Below, piece by piece: positions 3,783 through 48,100 of a stretch of 64,000 bases of DNA. The notes beneath the pieces were generated by a model. It was not told where the DNA came from, ran no database searches, and worked only from the letters and a program-made list of their open reading frames with translations. Each line of letters opens with the position of its first letter. Positions within the stretch are counted from its first letter, which is position 1. The stretch covers positions 27,772,501 to 27,836,500 of the forward strand of contig NC_092568.1 of the NCBI RefSeq assembly GCF_037975245.1, written 5' to 3'. A program made the translations under genes and the position numbers. Origin of the DNA: Apostichopus japonicus. Taxonomy: Eukaryota > Echinodermata > Holothuroidea > Aspidochirotida > Stichopodidae.

Positions 3783-6700
3783 GTAAGTGGATTGTCATAT
3801 TATCTCAATTATGAAGGTTACAGAGTTGTGCATGTACTAGATTCGCGACTAGGTCTAGCCTACTTAGATTGCTGTGTAGTAATAGCATGGTGTACGGTAC
3901 TGTAACTTCGCGTGTTCCCTAAATTCGCGTTACTGTGTTATACATATGTAGTTGCACAAATAGTCAAATTGTAACCACTTTCATTCATAATTTCAATATA
4001 CAAAGCATAAACAAATGCAGCCAAAACAAGGCATCATCAATTTTGTGATCTGAGACACTTTCATGGATTATTCCACAGAGTCAGGGAAATTTTTCCTTGC
4101 TTTGAGCAGTTTGACTCCCAACCTTTACAAGTATAAATTTTCTATTTCCCGCGGAATCTGATCAACTAATTGATGAAATCACATAGCTGAATTGAAAGCA
4201 CTAAGCCACCGAGCAAAGTAAGCTAGATGATAGATCGTGATCGCAGTTATCTTTTAAAATAACTTTAATGCTATTACTAAAGCGAATTTACAGTATAGGC
4301 CTACCATCATCTAGTATTTCTACCGGGAATTTACTGTCTTGGATCGAGAATTGGCTTGGTAATAGGAAACAGAGGGTGGTAATTAAAGGCTGTGCTTCTT
4401 CTTGGCAGGACGTTCAACGAGGTAAATGAATCTGGAGAAACTATCACACAGTAAATACGTGAGTACGCGCGTACCATGTATGGAGGGTCATGTGATGTGT
4501 TCCAGGGTGGTACTAATATACTACTCTCCCTATTACGCATGATGATTTCACCCAACTAGAACGTAAATGTGTTTGCGTGCTTAGGGCAGCAGACGACACC
4601 CGTTACCTAGCAATAACCGTGCCTGTAGCCTAACGCGATAGCTATATTCCCGTCGAGCAGCATTAGGCTCTGTTCCATGGAGAATTCCGTAGTTGCACTG
4701 AACTAAACATTTCCCCACATTTCCCATTTCTACATTCACTTATAGCGTGTAGTAATAACGTTAGGCCATATGAGACAAAGCTTGCCCCTATAGCTGTATT
4801 AATAAGTAAGATTATGTAGAAAGCCTGCCTTCATTCAAGAGAATAAGGTTGAACGTTAGCATATTAGCACTATTTCGTAGGCCTGAAGTACCAGTACCTT
4901 CTTATGCCGTTAGTTCCCATGTCCGAACCGACCAATCTTTCACGAAGTCACTAACACTGTTCTCGAACTGCTACAGAGAAATATCAGTATAGTACCACCC
5001 TGGAACACGTCACATGACCCTCCATACATGGTACGCGCGCACCCAATTGACATGAATCCTCCAGATTCATTTACCTCGTTGAGGACGTTACTAGTGGGGT
5101 TCCACAATGGTCTGTAGTGGGTCCCTTGTTGTTTGTTGCTATATAAATGACATCGACGGAGATATTTTGTGTATGTACAGCTAAAAAGTTTGCTGATGAC
5201 ACCAAATTGTATTCTGAGGTCTCTTCCAAAACCTATTATAAGAAGTTTCAAATGGATTTGGATCAGGTTTTTTCCCGGTCTCAGGGGTGGCAAATGCTTT
5301 TTAATATTGATAAATGCAATGTAATGCACATTGGTAGTACAGTAACCAAAAGTTTATATACAATCTTAACGGTGTGGAGTTACAGTAGGTCTCTGTTGAA
5401 AGAGACCTAGGTATCTACATTGACTCATCTCTACAACCTTCTAAACATTGTCTTGAAGCTGCTAAAAGAGGTATATAATAGGGTTTTAGGTATGATCAAG
5501 AGGAAGTTCAGTTTTCTGAAAGAGGACATCGTAGTTAGGCTTTATAAGCAGTTGGTTAGGCCTCATCTGGAGAATGCTGTGTAGGCTTGGAACCCATATT
5601 TTGCTAAGGATAAGGAAGTACTTGAAAAGGTCCAGGGGAGGGCTACTAGGATGATTAGTTCCTTAAAGAGTGTTCCTTAGTATAGGCAGTGTTCTGTTGA
5701 ATCTCACCACACTAGAGCTTAGGAGGTTACGTGGGGACTTGATCCAGGTTTTCAAGATTGTGTATGGTTTCGACAATTTATCCTTTACCGACTTTTTCAT
5801 GTTTGCTAACAGTAGTTGTACCAGAGGTTATTGTCTTAAACTCCATAAGTCACATAGTAGGATTAATATTCAGCATAACTTTTTTTTCTAATAGGGTTGT
5901 GAATGAGTGGAATGGTTTGCCTGAGAAAGTTTTACTTGCAAGTAGTGTCAATGGGTTTAAGAATGCTTTGGACAAGCACTTTAAGCATTGTAATCGGGTC
6001 TGAGTGTTGTGTCTTCAGTTTTTCTTTTCTCTCTCTATAGGGTCCTTGATGGGGACTTGAGTGTCCCTCCTGATCCTTTTTTTCTACTAAACTAAACTAA
6101 ACTAGTATTAGTAACCAGACCCTGGAAGTGGAAATCATCACAAAGGATCTCAAGGACTTAAATCAAAGCCCCCCCTCCAACACCCCCCCCCCCCCCTTTC
6201 AGCACAAGTTTTTATCTGGTATAAGAAGCTTTATGATCTTGGTGGAACTTCAGGGAGAATGTCAGACATCTCTTACCAAACCATGATCAGATGGTCACAG
6301 CTAAAAAGATAAAAATGCAGGGTAGTCTGCAATTTACAGTAGGTTAACACTGATAACTTACAGTGTCCAATTACAGTACAAACTACAAAGTAATCACTTA
6401 CCTGAATGTTATGAAGATGACCAAACTTGTCAGAACTTGTTCATTTTTTGTTGTTGTCTGAAATCATTATTTTCATACCATCACAGTCTCTTGTGAATAA
6501 TTTATATCTTCCAGGAGTTGTAACACCATTGGGGATTGGTGTCAGCAATGTATGGTCAAAATTACTTCAAGGCAAGAGTGGCATTGGATTGCTGAGTGGA
6601 GAAAAATATGAAGGAATACCAAGTAAAGTAGGTAAGATGTTTGAGGATGAAAGAACTGAACCATTTATTTCGTTTTCATGTCTTTTGTGGGTAGCCAAAA

Positions 6701-18564: not shown

Positions 18565-18900
18565 TAAGGTTAGTAGAAAAAGGATCAGGAGGGACACTTA
18601 AGTCCCCATCAAGAACCCTATAGGAGAGAAAAAACACAGAAAACACAAACACTTAGACCCGATTACAATGCTTAAAGTGCTTGTCCAAAAGTTTTCTTTA
18701 ATCCATTTTTACTTCTTGCAAGTACAACTTTCTCAGGCAAACCGTTCCACTCATTCACAACCCTATTAGAAAAAAAAGTTATGCTGAATATTAATTCTAC
18801 TTTGTAACTTTTGGAGTTAACGTCAATGACCTTTGGTACAACTACTATTAGCAAACATGAAAAAGTCAGTGAAGGATAAATTGTCAAACCATACAAAATG
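18565..18900 (-). mobile_element. CR1-like LINE copy C, 3' fragment
   Basis: On the minus strand it encodes [20 protein letters not shown] and NGLKKTF, followed by the family 3' UTR ending CCTTTTTCTAC. It is heavily 5'-truncated and oriented opposite to copies A and B. Confidence 0.85.
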
Positions 18901-19398
18901 TAGGAAACTGTGTTAATAACTGATGGGGGAGAGATGTGTAGGTTTGAGTGAATATACCATATGCCGAATGTCTACTTAGAAATTACATTAAAACACCGTG
19001 ATGACATTCGTATCAACTGGTTACATTGAACTTTTTTTCTAATAAGCTTTATGCTCTATTGAAGTTTTTTTAGACGAGAAGAACACAATGAATGTGATTG
19101 AGAGAGAGCAAGAGAATAAAATGTCATTTTGGTTTTTTGTTGTTGTTCATGTCAATGTTACTGGAATGCTATTTTCCATTAATTAATGCCTATTAAGTGT
19201 CCAGTGTCCTGGAACTTTTTCACATCCAGGACAATTTGAAGGTGAAATAATCTGAGACAAATTGCGCTAAAACAGAATTGATGGTAATTGCAACATATTT
19301 ACATTCACAAGGGCAGGGCTATGATTTTATATTTAAATCCGTAAAAATATCAAATCTACACCATTACGATAAGAATGATCCATCCTTTGACACATTGG

Positions 19399-20345
19399 TG
19401 TGAATTCGACTGAGATATTTTGTGTAAAGCTAAGAAGTTTGCTGATGACACTAAATTGTATTCTGAGGTCTCTTCCAAAAGCTATTATGAGAAGTTTCAA
19501 ATGGATTTGGATCAGGTTTTTTCCTGGTCTCAGGGGTGGCAAATGCTTTTTAATATTGATAAATGTAAGGTAATGCACATTGGAAGTAGTAACCAAAAGT
19601 TTACATACAATCTTAATGGTGTGGATTTAGAGGAGGTCTCTGTGAAAGAGACCTAGGTATCTACATTGACTCATCTCTGCAACCTTCTAAATATTGTCTT
19701 GAAGCTGCTAAAAGAGGTAATAGGGTTTTGGGTATGATCAAGAGGAACTTCAGTTTTCTGAAAGAGGACATCGTAGTTAGGCTTTATAAGCAGTTGGTTA
19801 GGCCTCATCTGGAGTATGCTGTGCAGGCTTGGAACCCTTACTTTGCTAAGAATAAGGAAGTACTTGAAAATGTCCAGAAGAGGGCTACTAGGATGATTAG
19901 TTCCTTAAAGAGGGTTCCTTATTATAGGCGGTTACAACTGTTGAATCTCACCACACTGGAGCTTAGGAGGTTACGTGGGGACTTGTCCAGGTTTTCAAGA
20001 TTGTGTATGGTTTTGACAATTTATCCTTTACTGACTTTTTCATGTTGGCAAACAATAGTTGTACAAGAGGTCATTGTCTTAAACTTCAAAAGTCGCATAG
20101 TAGGATTAATATTCGGCATAACTTTTTTTCTAATAGGGTTGTGAATGAGTGGAATAGTTTGCCTGAGATAGTTGTACTTGCAAGTAGTGTCAATGGGTTT
20201 AAGAATGCTTTGGACAAGCACTTTAAGCATTGTAATCGGGTCTGAGTGTTTGTGTCTTCAGTTTTTTCCCTCTCCTATAGGGTCCTTGATGGGGACTTAA
20301 GTGTCTCTCCTGATCCTTTTTTCTACTAAACTAAACTAAACTAAA
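19399..20345 (+). mobile_element. CR1-like LINE copy B, 5'-truncated
   Basis: Encodes [53 protein letters not shown] (with an intact downstream frame), LVRPHLEYAVQAWNPYF and [17 protein letters not shown], ending in CTACTAAACTAAACTAAACTAA. It has fewer stops than copy A. A few frameshifts remain. Confidence 0.88.
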
Positions 20346-22290: not shown

Positions 22291-22724
22291 AATTGTACAA
22301 TTGTGCTATGAAACCAACTGTGGCTGGTCTGGAACTCGACCGAGTCGTCGGGAACACGATGCGTTTCGGTATTAGACCAGGATCTATATGATCCGTAACT
22401 CATACAGTGAATCTAAAAATAAATTCCGCATGTGATTGGAGAATTGAGCACATCTCCTGTGAATATCATGTAGTGCGTGGGGGGGGGGGCAGGCGGATGC
22501 ACCTATCACTTCTTGAGATTGTTCCAATCTGCGTGAAAATGCCCCACCACCCACACCCCACAACCCCTACGCCCCACCCCTCTTATCACTTCCCGATGGG
22601 TTACAAAACTTAAACAATAACCTTCGCCCGTAGTACCAAACCTTGACAAAATCCGGCAACACACCACTTCATCGATAGATAACGAGTCTAGTGATCGGGC
22701 TGTGTATTAGTGATGCTAGAGGTC

Positions 22725-23925
22725 GTGCATATGGCAAGCCCTTTAACATTTACCTCGCAATTAGACTTAAGTCGAATACATTTCACTTAAGTGGAATACA
22801 TTCTACTTAAGTGAAATGTTATTCCACTTAAGTAAAATGTATTCCACTTAAGTGGAATTCAATATCCCTTAAGTAGAATTCCATTTCTCTTAAGTGGAAA
22901 TGGACATTTCTATTTCACTTAAGTGGATATGCCTCCCACTTAAGTGGAATTGTATTTCACTTTAGTGGAAATGCATTCCACCTAAGTGAAATTGTATTTC
23001 ACGTAAGTGGAATACATTTCCACTTAAGTGGAATACATTTCCACTTAAGCTAAATAGCCCATCTATATCACTTAAGTGGAATACAATTCCACTTAAGTGA
23101 AATGCATTTCCACTTAAGTGAAATACAATTCCACTTAAATGGAATACAATTTCACTTAAGTGGAATAATATCTTTTGCTCATCAATTTCACTTAAGTGGA
23201 ATTCTATTCTGCCAAAGTAAAATACAATTCCACTTAAGTGGAAGTGTTGATATGTGGCTTATATATAAATACAATTTAGGGTAATGTTCGGTAATGTTAT
23301 TTTGGTAATGGTATTCATCTGGTACCAGGTCAGGTATGTACGTACTCACCTTGCACGGATGTTAAGTGCTAGCTGGATCCCGATGGACAGCCGATATTCA
23401 TTGTGCACATATCGACACCACGTATCGCGGCAAGTTGTTTATAATGGCGCGCAAAGGCATGGGCAAAGTTTGGCGTTGAATGTACTAGCCAATCACATTC
23501 CACTTAAGTGGAATAGACTAGCCAATCACATTCCACTTAAGTGAAATAGACTATCCAATCACATTTCACTTAAGTGGAATTGTATTCCACTTAAGTGAAA
23601 TAGAAAGGAAATTCCACTTAAGTGGAATTGTATCCACTTAAGTTGAATACAATTCCACTTAAGTGAAATGCATTTCCACTTAAGTGAAATACAATCCCCT
23701 TAAGTGAAATAGATTAAGCTTAAGTAAGATGCAGTGACAAGTTGATGAATTCAGCTTAAGTAAAATACAATTAAGCTTAAGTGGAATGGTATTCCACTTA
23801 AGTGAAATAGAATTCCACGTAAGTTAAATAGTATTCTGCTTAAGTGATATTGAATTCCACTTAAGTGAAATGTATTCGACTTAAGTCGAATTGCGAGGTA
23901 AATGTTAAAACGGCTTGCCATACGT
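22725..23925. mobile_element. Foldback element built of CTTAAG palindromes
   Basis: The outer arms ATGGCAAGCC…TTAACATTTACCTCGCAATT (from 22730) recur as an inverse ending GCGAGGTAAATGTTAAAACGGCTTGCCAT at about 23922, followed by the palindrome GACTTAAGTC at each inner edge. Between them lie more than 30 CTTAAG sites, mostly inside TTCCACTTAAGTGGAAT-like units, plus a unique core at 23265-23485. No transposase is visible. It is best described as a foldback DNA element with satellite-like arms. Confidence 0.8.
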
Positions 23926-24324
23926 GCACTGACCTAAATGGAGTGTAACCACTCTCGATTTTGCAATTTCCCAAGATCAGGCCCGAAAAATCCCAAGACA
24001 TTCCAAGAACACTGTGCTGTATGGATTTCTAGCAATATCCAGCGATATCTAGGGATGAATATCCCAAGATCTTACCTAAACTGAAGGCAGATAGAGAATC
24101 GAAACCTTCAGTGTACTGAACTTGAAACTGCGTCTTTCGAAATGAAAAGAATGTCGGGAATTGCACAATAAACAAATCAAAGTTATTTATTTCAGTCTCA
24201 TTTCAATTATTCGAATTTGTTAAGCAAACAGCAGATATCACATCATATAAGTGAGCATGAAAATGGCGTTCCAGGATGAACAGCCTCTAAACCATGGGCG
24301 CAGATCCTGGTGCCGACAGCGGGA

Positions 24325-24462
24325 CGCGTCCCCATCAACTTTTTCTTGTCTTTTTCTTGTCAATTTTCTTGTCTTCTTGTCAATTTGTCTTGACAATTTC
24401 TTGTCTTGACAATTTGTCTTGACAATTTCTTGTCAATTTTCTTGTCAATTTGTCTTGACCAA
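24325..24462. repeat. Short tandem repeat of TTCTTGTCAATT / GTCTTGACAA
   Basis: Repeated TTCTTGTC and TTGACAATT units with internal inverse symmetry over about 135 bp. No coding potential. Confidence 0.7.
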
Positions 24463-28920: not shown

Positions 28921-29282
28921 TAATTATTTCTAAACAGTTACGGTGGTTAGTGTTATGTACTTAGAAAGTAAGACAAACTCTCTGTCTAGAATTCAACTCC
29001 CAGAGGATGTATTGTTTTGGTATTTCTTTTCCTCATTTTGCAGTTAAAATATTAGAAAAGCCTATCATTTCTCAATTAACAGTTACTGTGGCGAAGTTGT
29101 TATGTTGTATAATTTTGCATATTTATTATTGTTTTGTACAATGAAATTGTCAATAAACTGAATAAAATGAGACGTACTCCTTGTCTTGAATTCAAACACC
29201 AGAGGATGCATTTGATTTTCTATTTATTTGCCTTCTAATGTTGTGAAGATTAAATATTAGAAACGAGTATTCAATCTCAACA

Positions 29283-29361
29283 GTTCTCGTGGCGCAGTTG
29301 GTAGTGCTCTGGACTGGAGAGACAGACAAACTCCATGTCTCCGGTTCGAACCCCAGACAGC
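29283..29361 (+). tRNA. tRNA-like unit 1
   Basis: Box A TGGCGCAGTTGG and box B GGTTCGAACCC are present. D-stem GCGC pairs with GTGC. TTTT follows as a possible pol III terminator. Two bases of the acceptor (AG before CATTTT) are lost relative to the other units. Confidence 0.4.
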
Positions 29362-29441
29362 ATTTTATATTTTTGCTCTTTTACTGACTCCATTCTGGAC
29401 TTTGAAGTTTAAATATTAGAAACGAGCATTAATTCTCAACA

Positions 29442-29522
29442 GTTCTAGTGGCGCAGTTGGAAGTGCTCTGGACTGGAGAGACAGACCAACTCCATGTCTC
29501 CGGTTCGAACCCCAGACAGAGC
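29442..29522 (+). tRNA. tRNA-like unit 2
   Basis: GTTCT at the start can pair with AGAGC at the end. Boxes A and B are intact. The anticodon loop, if read CTGGAGA, would give GGA (Ser), but the stem pairs in only three of five positions. A 6-bp stem GAGACA/TGTCTC could form instead, as a long variable arm. Confidence 0.42.
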
Positions 29523-29601
29523 ATTTTATATTTTGCTCTTTTACTGATTTCATTCTGGACTATGAAGTTTAAATATTAGAAACGAGCATTAATTCTCAAC
29601 A

Positions 29602-29682
29602 GTTCTAGTGGCGCAGTTGGTAGTGCTCTGGACTGGAGAGACAGACAAACTCCATGTCTCCGGTTCGAACCCCAGACAGAGC
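29602..29682 (+). tRNA. tRNA-like unit 3
   Basis: Same structure as unit 2 and almost identical in sequence. Boxes A and B are intact and it is followed by CATTTTATATTTTG. Confidence 0.42.
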
Positions 29683-29761
29683 ATTTTATATTTTGCTCTT
29701 TTACTGATTTCATTCTGGACTATGAAGTTTAAATATTAGAAACGAGCATTAATTCTCAACA

Positions 29762-29842
29762 GTTCTAGTGGCGCAGTTGGTAGTGCTCTGGACTGGAGAG
29801 ACAGACAAACTCCATGTCTCCGGTTCGAACCCCAGACAGAGC
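29762..29842 (+). tRNA. tRNA-like unit 4
   Basis: Appears identical to unit 3 including the spacer, which points to recent duplication. Confidence 0.42.
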
Positions 29843-29921
29843 ATTTTATATTTTGCTCTTTTACTGATTTCATTCTGGACTATGAAGTTTAAATATTAGA
29901 AACGAGCATTAATTCTCAACA

Positions 29922-30002
29922 GTTCTAGTGGCGCAGTTGGTAGTGCTCTGGACTGGAGAGACAGACAAACTCCATGTCTCCGGTTCGAACCCCAGACAGA
30001 GC
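29922..30002 (+). tRNA. tRNA-like unit 5
   Basis: Same tRNA-like segment; the spacer differs slightly after the T run. Confidence 0.42.
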
Positions 30003-30082
30003 ATTTTATATTTTTGCTCTTTTACTTATTCCATTCTGGACTTTGAAGTTTAAATATTAGAAACGAGCATTAATTCTCAACA

Positions 30083-30163
30083 GTTCTAGTGGCGCAGTTG
30101 GTAGTGCTCTGGACTGGAGAGACAGACAAACTCCATGTCTCCGGTTCGATTCCCAGACAGAGC
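30083..30163 (+). tRNA. tRNA-like unit 6
   Basis: Box B is GGTTCGATTCC, which is closer to the tRNA consensus. The T-run after it is lost (CATCATGTC), so termination would differ. Confidence 0.38.
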
Positions 30164-30261
30164 ATCATGTCTGCGGTTCATGTCCAGACAGAGCCTTTTA
30201 CTTTTCTACCCTCTGGAGGGAGTGGAAGTATAAATATAAGAAACGAAGTTTCTCCAGAGGG

Positions 30262-41144: not shown

Positions 41145-44100
41145 CTGTAAAGACAAATATCAAAGCAATATGTACAGTATATATATACCTTTGGTGTGAA
41201 ATAATTTTTAGTATTTTTTTTAAAGTAGTTTTACATAAGATCATCTTCCAGTTTGCGTATGCAGATACCTTTTTGATGAATGTTTACAAACATGAATAAA
41301 CTGTACCTCTTTTTTTTACTAAGTGCCTGTTTATTTTTAATACTTGCAATATAACTCTTTAATGAACCTTACTAGACATTGCTATCAAACCTATGGAGTA
41401 CTTCGTAAAATGCCAAAACTTCCTTTGATGTATATTGTTCACTATAATGGTCAACCTGATTGAAAGGAATGAATTCAACACAATTTGAGAACATTTCATC
41501 AGCCAAACAATTTGGAGAGCATGTACTAGTTAAAACAAACTTAGCAAGCACATTCATGAGGAACTGGAAAATTGAAAAATGTCTGAAATAAACATCATTC
41601 TTGAAACGAGAAACTTGACAAGTGAAATAAGGACCGACACTTAAGCTACAACATGTACACTTAGCAAAGATGAAAACTGGCTTTTCAGCCAATACACAAG
41701 TACCAACAACATATTAGTATATTCATGGTAAACCCTCATGTGCTTCCATGACTTCTAGTACCTGTGTAATAATATTCTATATCAACAAGGACAGAGATAC
41801 TATATCTTGTACTTATCTCTCAATACTCTTAATATGTGTTTACCATGAGTTGTGTTCCTCACAACTTTCAATCAATGTTTTCAAATTAAAAACCAAATTA
41901 AAGACAATTACTCAACAATGAGAGGTTGACTTAGCAAAGTTTGAATTCGGTTTAATAATAATCATAGTTTCAGTGAAACAGTTCTGCAGACCATAAAATC
42001 ATGCCTTAGGCATCAAAAGAAGGCTATGATCTGATAAAGATATGCCAAGAGTTGGACCAATACTGTTAAGCCTAGCTTCAGGTCAAAATTATGCTAGTTG
42101 ATCAAATTAATACATGTATATCAATTTAGTTGCCTATGCTAGGTAACATCAGCTTTCATGGAGAGTTTTCTCCATACTTGAACCATCACTAACGTCAATT
42201 AGACCACAGAGCTAGGCCTAATTGCTTGAGAATTTCATTTTACAAAGTACCGTTGCTTGTATAAGAAGCCTAGAATAGGCTAGTTCGTCCCTAGGTTTCC
42301 CATTTTCATTTGGTGGTAGGCCTAGCCTGGGGCCATTTGTTCCCTCCCCTAACAATGTTATTTTCCTCCCACTTAAAAGTTGAGTAACTTACCTCCCCTA
42401 CATCATAGGGGAGTCAAGTACGTTTTCACTGGAAACTAACATTTCCAGGGGAGTTAACTAAGGTTTTTCAGGGGAGGCATATTGGCTAGGCTATGTGGGA
42501 AGAATAGATGTTGTAAGTGGAATAACTGTAAGAAAAGATTTAAAGCAGAAAGGTAAAGTTAAGGGTGAAAAATAACATGGTTAAGGAAACTAACATACTA
42601 TTTTCAAGGGAGGAGACTGTTGTTCTGTAGGCTCTGACTGCATATTCTTGTAGAGTAAGCTAAAGAAAGTTGTGATAGTATGAAAATAGAAAATGTGACC
42701 AGGTATCTTCCTTGTGTAACTGTTCAGTGATTGGAAGATAAAAAATGTTTGTGAATAGGCCGGATTGTTTGCATAGGATTGTATGCGAACATGGGGTAAT
42801 TTACATGCGTGGAATTCATTGTGGTAATGGGTTGTTTGCTTGTATGGCATTCATTGTGGGAATGAATAACATAGACAATTTAGCCTATACAGTAGGTATG
42901 CCCTCCTTGGTTCCTCTCCTTGTTTTCCTATTTACAAGTTTCTTCAATTACTACAAGTACAAGTGTCTCTTTGAAATATGTTCCTTTCTTTCACCAAACT
43001 CTCCTAAATCACAAGACACATTTACTACGTACAGTTGCTTCACTACCTAAATTAATTCTTTCCACAGCCAAGCCGTCTTTCTTTCCTCCCCTGAAAAACG
43101 TTGGTTTCAACCCCTAAAAATAATTTCAGGGAGGAAACTATTGTTTTTATTCTTGAAAGTTGGAGAAGAAACCAACGGCCTTGCCTGTCATGATGGAACA
43201 AAAAAGGAAAGAGAGAGCTTTCATCCTAAGCTAATTTGTCTGGCTGCGAGTTAGTTTCTTGAGGATGTGTTACTGTTAGTGTTAAGTGCTAGATGGCATA
43301 GCCTAGGCTCTGGTAGGCTACTCTGGTAGGAATTTAAAGACATTTATGCCTTTTATACTTGATATCTCTTTCTTAACGTACAGTTAATGTTTTGTTCCAA
43401 TATTTCTCTGCATATTTCAGCTATTATTTTCAATAAAATTGAAAGTGTATTGATGTCTTTCAGTTCCTTTTTTATATGAGCACACATGTACTTGTGATTT
43501 TCCTACCATGAAAATGGAGAAAACTATACCCCTTAATTACTCAAAAGCATTAAGTAACAAATAAAAACGTGAAAAAATAGAGGCATGAAATATAAAGAAT
43601 AGAAATACCGATATTTTTGATGAACCAAGCACAAATATTGTCATATTTTGGTAAAATAATAGCACACTATACAGGGAAGACGGAGCACATTTATCAATGG
43701 GGGGGGGGGGGGAAGGAGCAAAGTGGGGAAAAGAAAGGAGTGCACTACCAAGTAACTTACTTGAACATTCTGTATCGATCTCTCTTTTCTGAAACTTTTA
43801 TCTCCAATGGGGAGGGGGGCACATAAAGTCATCTTCACTGTGAAATAAGTGTAGCAAAAAGTGGGGGTCTGCCTCCCATGTACCTTACCTCCTCCCTCCC
43901 TGCTACACCCTCTTTGTTTCATAGTTTGGTAATGGTTTAAAGAGAGGAAACGGCTGGCCTTAAATTAACAGGCTAACATCATTATTCATGTATATATATT
44001 AGGTGGTCGAATAGTGTATAATGCTGGTCGAATTCTGCATTCATGCGGTCGTATTCTGCCCATGAAATATCATCAAATATATTTTGTGGTATACTGCAAG

Positions 44101-44690
44101 TACAAAAGACAATATTTTAATTCTTTTTAATAATCAATAGTATATGCATCAATCCTGTATTATAAACTAAAAATATATATTTTTATTTCGTTTCGCGAAA
44201 GTAGGAAAGCAAAATGTGTTAAACGGTCATATACTATGCACGCTACCCTAGGCTAATTTAGTTAGGCCTAGCCTAACTGTACTAGCCTTAACCAGAAAGT
44301 AATTAGGCCCAACCAGCTAGGTCTAGTATTTTGTCGGAAGATATAAAGTGACTTACTTTACTTACGTTAATTGTCTAGTGAATATCATATTAGGCCTAGA
44401 TTAGCATTCCAACTAGTATAGACGCCAGTGCCTACGTGAGCTAGCCTATCGTTAGGCCTAAGCGATACTATTATATGATAGGCTAGCGTAATTTCTCATG
44501 CTCGCTGACTCAAACAATGTGAAGTACTAACTTGCTCCACAAAACTAATACACAACCTTCGAGCTGGCGAATATATCTGCCATTCACATTCTTTGGCAGT
44601 TACCACCCATACAGAATAGGCTACAAATTACAATTACGTATGAATTGTTAGCCAACGGCTGCCAGGAAGCGAACTGCACTGCTCGTGTAA
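41145..44690. other. Unique sequence, no supported gene
   Basis: AT-rich, with a G-run at 43699-43712 and several TAGGCCTA palindromes from 42315. The open frames look random. Confidence 0.4.
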
Positions 44691-44701
44691 CCATTCGTGA
44701 G

Positions 44702-44710
44702 CTTTATATA
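44702..44710 (-). promoter_or_regulatory. TATA-box candidate for a minus-strand transcript
   Basis: TATATAAAG on the minus strand is followed, about 30 bp on, by GAGCAGTGCAGTTCGC, a possible initiator. The surroundings are CpG-richer than the neighbourhood. The target gene is not identified. The ABCC-like exon 4 kb further along this strand is one candidate. Confidence 0.3.
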
Positions 44711-45119
44711 CAGATCATAATTCGCGCTCCGTTGCTTAACCTTTGACCACGACCGTGTGCGTCTATGGCAAGCCATGTGGGACAAACACCGCATAATATA
44801 TCAACGTATTAATTGAAAACAAATAAACTAGCAATGACATGCTAGATGCATATCCATTTGAAATCATTACATTTACAACGAAACAATTCAAATGGTCTCA
44901 TAACATAGGCCTAAGGTCATTAAACATGTTGGTCAAGATAACTTATTGAGTTCGCTGCGAATCTCGTCAGAAAAGTTGTTTTAATGACCAATATATCATT
45001 ACCCGAATGGGTTGGTCTGGCATTAGGCCTAGGCGGGACAGTAGGCCTACTGTCATGATCAACCCGGGGGGGGGGGGCGAAGGTGTAGGTCTGACGTATC
45101 CATGGGACAGACATTCTAA

Positions 45120-48100
45120 AGATAATAATTTACACTTTTGGAGGGGGACTCTTGGGGCGAATCTTGACATAAAAATGCCAGCCTAAAATTGTTTAGCTAG
45201 CTGCATGAACATTTTCAGATACAACAAATTTTGGCAAAAACTGCTTGAATTTTGTGATAAAATGTCACATTTGAGATTTTTTAGATAAATTGTCTGAATT
45301 TTTAACCCAGTCTCCAATATAAATGAAGGTATTAAATGAAATTCACTGTTTCTGTGATCCATGTAGAGGTTTTGTTCTTAAAGTACAGTCTTATACCCTT
45401 TTGTGAAGAGTTCTAGAGCATCTGTTCCTTATGTATGTCTTGAAGTAGACATTGGGTAAAGTAGAGGTTTGCTAAATTTTAATAGAATCAATAGATATAT
45501 CTACTTCAGTTGCTGTAACTGTATCTTAGGTGCTCCCCCCCTCCCTCTGCCAGGTTTCATCTAGGATGAACTACTGGTGCTGTGATCGAGTGGATAAAGG
45601 CAATGGCATTTGAAGCAATGAGGTTTGGCGATCAGGAGGTTCTATGTAAGGTGGGTTTATCATCCAAGAGCAGTCTACAGTTTTCCCATCTGAAATGAGT
45701 TTCTAAATTTTATATAAAATGTTGAATTGGAAGCCACCTGTAGTGTAAGTTTCTCCCACATTTGTGTTTGGTTAAGCTTTGTAAAAATAACTGCTCATTA
45801 TTATTATTACAAGGGCTGTGTAACCCCATTCTTATCTTTGGAGTGGGGGGAGGGGGTATCTGCACTTGTTGGATATCTAGTGCAATTGGACGCCAAGATT
45901 AAGAAACAGAAAACCACATTTACATAATGTTACAGCTCTGATATAAATCTTAGCTTTATAAGAAACTCAAAGGACAGCCATATATTTTACCACTCCGTGG
46001 AAGCTGGAATCCTTTTTATTTATCAACAGCATACATACACACCATAATTGAATTATAATTAAACAGTAACATAAAAGATAAAAGTACTAAAACTGAAAAC
46101 ATGATAAGAAAATGACATCCCTTGATGATAGTACAGTGAACTGGAGCCTCTGGAGAGAAATGTATACTAATACAAGCCTTTTAATTAGGTTGTGATATTG
46201 TGTGTTGCACATCTATAATAATCAACAATGTGGGTAATCATTAATAAGTACTCATTTGAGTGTGAAAATAAAGCCTACAGGTTGTCAAATAATTCATTGT
46301 TAACAGTTAGATCATATAGCAAACAGAACAAGAAGCTACAAAGGAACGTACTTGCTTCATAAAATATCGCCCCAAGTGTCTTGCAGCATATATTATGTAA
46401 CTTAATTATACTCAACTATCAGAGTGAACAACAGAGTAAACAACTCTACAGTAAAGGCCACCATTTGAATACTGTACTATCTTCTAAATGAATGGAAACA
46501 GTTAAAAAGATAGTTCATACTCCAGTCTTTGATACACTGTGTATGAAACCGGTGGGGATTATAAAGGTAGGTTTTACACGCTTCACCATGATGTAAGAAA
46601 TATAGGGGTAATAAAAGGAATATCATACCATCAAAGAATATATAACATTAACTCAAAGGTCACTGTACATCTTGTTTAAGTCTCACTATGCATTCCATCT
46701 GGACGGTCTGAATAATAATGTCTATTCTCGCTCGTTCTCTGAGATTCAGCCAAAATATTTGGCAAACAATGCACCTACAAGATTGTCTGCTTATTAACTA
46801 CACAATGGTACCAAAATAGGGTTAGGGAACAGTTTGTTCGTGTTTATAATGGAAGGCATAATGGGGCTTTATACCTAAATATCACATGAAAGTAAGTACA
46901 AACAATGAAGGATATTCATCAGAACAAAACTACGAGGCAAGTTATAAAACCAACCAATTTACTCAGTTTTGAAAAGTAAGTTAAAACAGAGGACCTGTGT
47001 GCTATTCATGACCAACATTTTTGTTTGTGTTTACGTCATATGAAAAACTCAAAACACCCATATCCCAATGGATTTAAAGAAAAAATTGAAACCATAGAAA
47101 ATAAGTTGACAGTCAGGTCCAGTAGCTACTGGATAGTTCCCTAAAAACACTTTAATGAGTTTTACTTCAGCACCGTCGAAATGGGTGCAATTGGTCCGTA
47201 AATATATGATGCTTGGCATGGCAAAACATGGATGGGACAGATATTGAGACTTTCATATTTAGAGAGGACAGAAACAAACAAACAAGCAGAGACTTAAAGT
47301 TGAATCCAGATGTCCTTTTATCACTGAATGGAGAATCGGTTGAGAGAGCATTTCAGAGATGAAGCCTGAATTGAAAGCTAAAAGATCAATCAATTTTGTG
47401 AAGTAGCAGTTAACGTACTACACTTTTCATTCAATTCTAATTACCACCAGGTGAAGGCAATATTATGCAATATTTCTGTACGAAACCCTTGGTGTATTTC
47501 TCCCCCTCCAACCCATGCCCAAAGAGGTGCAACTTCACATGGCTAATTAGCCTGATCACCTCTGTCCCTTCTGCTATATGAAAAGTAAAGTAAGACATCT
47601 TAATCCTCTCTTACATTTGATCTTTCTGTGGTTTTAAGAATTTGCATATTTTAAATATTCAGGGTGGCATTTAACCCCCCCACTTCCCCACACCCATCAC
47701 CCTTCACCACCAAGAAAAATGAAAATGGATGAAGTAAACAGGGTGAGAGAGAACTTCAGTTGCTACTGATGTTTGTTCTAATAATGTCCTCATAGATAAT
47801 ACGGAAACCTCAAGTCTGCAATATAAATCCACCGTGACAAAATGATGATATTTCGGTTGCTTTTATTCCCAAGATGCGCTATTGTTCTTGTTTTGTTATT
47901 AAATTTATTTCCTATTCCTGTTGGCCTGGTTAAATACCGTCATGAGAATCCGACAGTGGCGCATCCTGGTCGACCAAGTGGGGAAGGAAAACCAAAACTT
48001 GCAACAACATCAACAACAACGACAGAGTAGATACAGACTTGTGACACGTTGTGACAAGTTGTGACAACGATCACAGCAAAATCACATCATTGTAGCAAAT

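Follow-up and report, generated by a model that had tools for sequence, protein, structure and literature searches.

We analyzed a 64,000-nt stretch of the Apostichopus japonicus genome (NCBI RefSeq assembly GCF_037975245.1, contig NC_092568.1, forward-strand positions 27,772,501 to 27,836,500), hereinafter the window, whose internal coordinates are used throughout, and focused on a foldback-like element at 22730-23922. This element, which reads TATGGCAAGCC...GGCTTGCCATA, consists of two arms packed with near-palindromic repeat units, separated by a unit-free core and bounded by long terminal inverted repeats (TIRs), each of which directly adjoins a copy of a 6-bp target-site duplication (TSD). 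Judging from its ends and duplication, we consider it reasonably probable that the element is a non-autonomous, foldback-type insertion of the IS3EU superfamily, related to GingerRoot, that was moved in trans and whose arms are candidate arrays of repeated binding sites. The features of the locus are as follows:

22724..22729, + strand: left copy of the TSD, 6 bp, CGTGCA, same as 23923-23928
22730..22797, + strand: left TIR, beginning with TATGGCAAGCC and holding the outermost unit GACTTAAGTC (end alignment)
22764..23245, + strand: left arm, 22 near-palindromic units, mostly at 20-21 bp spacing, the first within the TIR
~23246-23484, no strand: unit-free core, no Pfam match above cut-off, folding z ~0 vs resampled sequence
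23484..23580, + strand: about three tandem 33-bp copies with one unit each, a local expansion (Tandem Repeats Finder, 2.9 copies, 93% matches)
23485..23891, + strand: right arm, 17 near-palindromic units
23854..23922, - strand: right TIR, final bases GGCTTGCCATA (end alignment)
23923..23928, + strand: right copy of the TSD, CGTGCA, same as 22724-22729

Boundaries, inverted ends and core

The two TIRs (22730-22797 and 23854-23922) are 68 and 69 bp long and align with 66 of 69 columns identical, two mismatches and one gap; past these 69 columns, the alignment collapses. The initial annotation of this locus had recognized the inverted termini, putting them at about 45 bp, and had placed the element at 22725-23925; the inverted ends are longer than that, and the actual bounds differ from the proposed span by 3-5 bases. 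CGTGCA 6-mers, missing from the earlier account, exactly abut both inverted ends, a duplication known here from one copy of the element, and no duplication longer than 6 bp emerges when the boundary is moved by as many as 12 bases. At a given boundary in this window, two flanking 6-mers would match by chance with a probability of about 0.00035, as estimated from 20,000 random pairs. The mobility of the element, previously a conjecture, is now supported by a TSD that abuts the inverted ends.

We scanned the whole window for TAYGG/CCRTA pairs located 100-6000 bp apart. Among the 486 pairs detected, six had matching 11-bp ends (at most one mismatch) and one had a 6-bp duplication, and 22730-23922 alone combined both properties. 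Thirty first-order Markov windows contained, on average, 772 pairs, 3.2 with matching ends and 0.37 with a duplication; a pair with both was found in none of the 30. A second TAYGG..CCRTA pair, at 4479-5026, has perfect 11-bp ends but lacks the 6-bp duplication and was rejected as a candidate; it is an inner inverted repeat belonging to another element. Apart from the two ends of the element, TATGGCAAGCC occurs exactly once more in the window, at 44764, with no array or partner found near it, either by eye (43500-46500) or in the pair scan.

The core, described in the initial annotation as a sequence at 23265-23485 free of open reading frames, is devoid of units between about 23246 and 23484, close to that span; the nine open stretches found in its six frames (23-72 aa) produced no Pfam match above cut-off (best E 0.07), so that we discarded the idea of a coding remnant. 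The longest open frame of the element (98 aa), which spans repeats, likewise showed no Pfam match above cut-off. Across the window, no Rfam family reached the gathering threshold and ARAGORN reported no tRNA. A BLAST search for phage matches with 22680-23980 found none. The exact TIR pattern was absent from GTDB genome contigs, the same pattern shortened by one base from IMG/VR, and a two-unit array pattern from both, misses that say little about an animal family because these collections are prokaryotic or viral.

Repeat units and their asymmetry

The arms are rich in CTTAAG: 33 of the 44 copies in the window fall within 22766-23885, exactly the number reported in the initial annotation, and the window total compares with 21.2 expected from shuffles (largest shuffle, 35). 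We scored each position of the window against ATTCCACTTAAGTGGAAT over 18 positions, accepting C or T at position 4 and G or A at position 15. With a score of at least 14/18, there were 37 positions within the element and none elsewhere in the window. The unit set comprises the 39 positions in the element that score at least 13/18, of which the left arm has 22 and the right arm 17; one score-12 unit (23276), which had been included in an earlier count of 40 units, was dropped. Of the 39 units, 26 contain an exact copy of the 8-mer CCACTTAA, which occurs only once outside the element.

The 38 gaps between neighboring units measure 21 bp (23 cases), 20 bp (7), 27 bp (2), 33 bp (2), 36 bp (2), 29 bp (1) and, over the core, 270 bp (1). 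We considered helical phasing: 30 of the 38 gaps are 20-21 bp, yet those of 27, 29, 33 and 36 bp depart from 10.5-bp steps, and phasing is not claimed. Internal duplications of 111 bp and 33 bp are found within the element. Foldback elements are characterized by long inverted ends with tandem repeats around a middle domain, and here two arrays flank a core. Past the outer 69 bp, the two arms are not clearly inverted copies in register with each other (global score 339 vs 314 ± 16, with 15 of 200 unit-order shuffles scoring as high). Beyond the arms, we noted that TAGGCCTA occurs 16 times in the window against 0.8 expected from base composition, and that a short array of TTGTCTTGACAATTTC-like, partly self-complementary units lies at 24339-24459, about 420 bp from the element.

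Pairing between the two sides of the units was counted in 37 of the 39, excluding the two located in the TIRs. Each unit had been taken to be a palindrome, which is true approximately: all nine arm pairs are intact in just 4 units. At position 6 from the center, the combinations are C..A in 17 units, T..G in 10, C..G in 8, and A..A and A..G in one each, with no T..A, so that this position is paired in 8 of 37 units vs 17.7 expected, a value not reached in any of 5000 shuffles. The absence of T..A corresponds to p 0.0003 across the 37 body units, 0.0017 and 0.0071 after de-duplication (32 distinct 20-mers and 25 distinct 18-mers, respectively), and 0.0032 when second copies of the internal duplications are removed (30 units), all these values serving as guides only because the units are not independent. 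Pairing is at chance level at positions 4, 5, 9 and 10, and positions 1-3, 7 and 8 are nearly invariant and carry little information on pairing. Given the bias at position 6, the units are oriented, near-palindromic copies of TTCCACTTAAGTGAAAT with a period of about 21 bp. In the left arm, 7 units are in the plus and 9 in the minus orientation, compared with 10 and 1 in the right arm (Fisher p 0.018). The asymmetry suits repeated protein-binding sites, a role that we tentatively assign to the units, and a dimer requiring at least one strong half-site would yield the position-6 pattern.

Affiliation and competing explanations

The published families compared here are taken from excerpts of the papers cited. 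In these, the termini of complete families of IS3EU, a Repbase superfamily, are always TA..TA and their TSDs usually measure 6 bp (PMC10045372), GingerRoot, treated with IS3EU in the same paper, combines TSDs of 6 bp with ends that are mostly TA..TA, and an IS3EU set from rust fungi is characterized by TAYGG..CCRTA ends, TIRs longer than 30 bp and 6-bp TSDs (PMC12730594). The element of A. japonicus shares the TA..TA termini, which conform to the TAYGG..CCRTA signature (TATGG..CCATA at 22730 and 23922), the 6-bp duplication (CGTGCA on both sides of its one copy) and TIRs exceeding 30 bp (68/69 bp). It differs in its arms of near-palindromic units, which the excerpts of PMC10045372 and PMC12730594 do not describe, and in showing no coding match to the IS3/IS481-type DDE transposase that typifies IS3EU. 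Because the element shows no transposase, it is the ends and the duplication by themselves that point to the IS3EU superfamily. The initial annotation assigned this structure to no named family; as far as the ends are concerned, the match to the published IS3EU signature contradicts that view, which gives way to a probable non-autonomous IS3EU element with an unusual array. Dada elements have 6-7 bp duplications as well and insert in small RNA genes, with Dada-U6 and Dada-U1 lacking TIRs (PMC3706591); the long TIR found here, together with the lack of an Rfam match at the gathering threshold or a reported tRNA in the window, rules out this family.

Several observations weigh against our assignment or against a role of the arrays. 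No transposase-coding match was obtained when the open frames of the element were compared with Pfam, no second copy is present in the window, such that the element is seen once, and the TAYGG end signature is documented for fungi only in the excerpts used, whereas the host is an animal. At a score of at least 13/18, 15 positions outside the element accompany the 39 inside it, so that the two weakest units (23214 and 23721), which score no better, are marginal. CCACTTAA is exact on both sides of only 6 of the 39 units and on neither side in 13. A single asymmetric founder unit could give an identical position-6 table, and slippage can enlarge a tandem array that has no function at all. Two further points, the possible reading of the ends as a bare TA duplication and an excess of pairing at position 5, belong to the alternative explanations considered below.

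The foremost alternative, in our estimation unlikely, is that the element is a foldback of another superfamily (Mutator-like, hAT, P or similar to the sea-urchin TU elements) whose first five bases are convergent. Mutator is said to hold most of the described foldback elements (PMC4079207), and hAT6 elements with 6-bp duplications are known (PMC12730594). Among Mutator-type foldbacks, Tetris and Tm1 resemble the present element in having non-autonomous copies and, in Tm1, a repeat number that is unequal between the ends of one element; they differ in that their duplications are 8-10 bp (Tetris) and 9 bp (Tm1), against none longer than 6 bp within 12 bases here, their authors assign them to Mutator, and the excerpts used make no mention of near-palindromic units. 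Sea-urchin TU elements, which have 8-bp duplications and 15-bp units, are a foldback family of echinoderms, the group to which the host belongs, and are likened here by description only. Foldback elements of sea urchins are mentioned in excerpts of the foldback literature.

Somewhat less plausible still is a Tc1/mariner-type miniature inverted-repeat transposable element with ends TGGCAAGCC and a 2-bp TA duplication, the chief alternative reading of the ends: TA does sit before the left TGGC and after the right GCCA, but the adjoining 6-bp match of CGTGCA would be left unexplained, at a chance of about 0.00035.

We regard it as improbable that the element is driven by structure, with the units serving cruciform extrusion or RNA hairpins. 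When folded as DNA, the whole element has an energy of -334.6 vs a mean of -113.1 in 8 Markov resamplings (z ~-23), and the left and right arms have z values of -19.7 and -14.6, respectively (40 resamplings each). Hairpin extrusion, as proposed in the initial annotation, is therefore physically possible, but the unit sequences are apparently not kept for it. The unit differs little from its reverse complement; however it is arrayed, it will thus form an inverted repeat, and the low energy is a consequence of this repetition. Selection for pairing would match changes on one side by changes on the other, and the position-6 pairing below chance speaks against it. An excess of pairing at position 5 (p 0.004) does appear when all 40 units are included but vanishes without the TIR units and the score-12 unit (27 of 37 vs 24.9 expected, p 0.16). 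Least convincing of all is a local palindrome or satellite expansion that was never mobile: the 111-bp and 33-bp internal duplications attest to local growth and only one copy is seen, but the ends conform to a known superfamily and are bordered by an exact 6-bp duplication, which argues against it.

Other repeats in the window and a possible role of the arrays

The window contains further repeats and elements. A 667-bp element at 4415-5081, with the TIR CAACGAGGTAAATGAATC and a second inverted repeat nested within, is flanked by an exact 8-bp duplication, AGGACGTT (4407-4414 and 5082-5089), and a bare palindrome at 1703-1734, CAAAGAGGTAAATGAATCATTTACCTCGTTGA, looks like the ends of this element placed back to back. 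The 11-mer CATTTACCTCG is common to the TIRs of the 4415-5081 and IS3EU-like elements, in opposite orientation relative to the ends; it is found at 22747-22757, 23894-23904, 4418-4428, 5068-5078 and 1720-1730, and, with at most one mismatch, has 8 matches in total (5 exact) vs 0.59 expected. At 29244-30165, a 160-bp unit is repeated in 5.8 tandem copies and includes a tRNA-like stretch with GGTTCGAACCC that by eye resembles a short interspersed nuclear element; ARAGORN predicts no tRNA in this repeat. A long inverted duplication at 18577-20321, with arms up to 93% complementary, contains open frames that by eye resemble fragments of long interspersed nuclear elements (LINEs), and a Pfam search with one of these frames (19617-20141) was without a match. 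In the window as a whole, the Pfam matches include SRP68 and a LINE-type endonuclease above cut-off and a reverse transcriptase below it.

Under the IS3EU assignment, the TATGG..CCATA ends would be brought together by an integrase-type transposase provided in trans, and cut-and-paste insertion would leave a 6-bp duplication, here CGTGCA. The TTCCACTTAAGTGAAAT arrays would most likely bind a dimeric DNA-binding protein, either the transposase or a host factor, and the bound arrays could then help end recognition and synapsis. CCACTTAA presumably resembles NK-2 class homeodomain sites, an assumption of ours that a literature search for 8-mers did not confirm. It is a speculative possibility, to which we give limited credence, that an IS3EU-kind transposon disseminates a preassembled array of putative protein-binding sites (CCACTTAA) that are oriented and half-site-biased, acting as a concentrator of transposase, which would be new for integrase-type transposons, or as a moving regulatory array or decoy for a host homeodomain factor.

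A partial parallel is provided by Galileo, whose long, foldback-like TIRs contain repeats that are bound by the THAP domain of its transposase, and whose authors, in the excerpts used, propose that multiple sites confer specificity or offset the length of the ends (PMC3688188). In both elements, the ends are long and foldback-like and enclose tandem repeats, which in Galileo hold extra transposase-binding sites. The difference is that Galileo belongs to the P superfamily of Drosophila and its sites are bound by THAP, whereas the element of A. japonicus bears the IS3EU end signature and its binder is putative.

If the reading proposed here is true, the combination of a foldback architecture and repeated-site arrays would also have arisen in the integrase-like IS3EU superfamily. 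The element would further provide a simple, testable substrate for the recruitment of transposase or a host factor by subterminal arrays, and would serve as a warning that arrays of palindromes need not reflect selection for hairpins.
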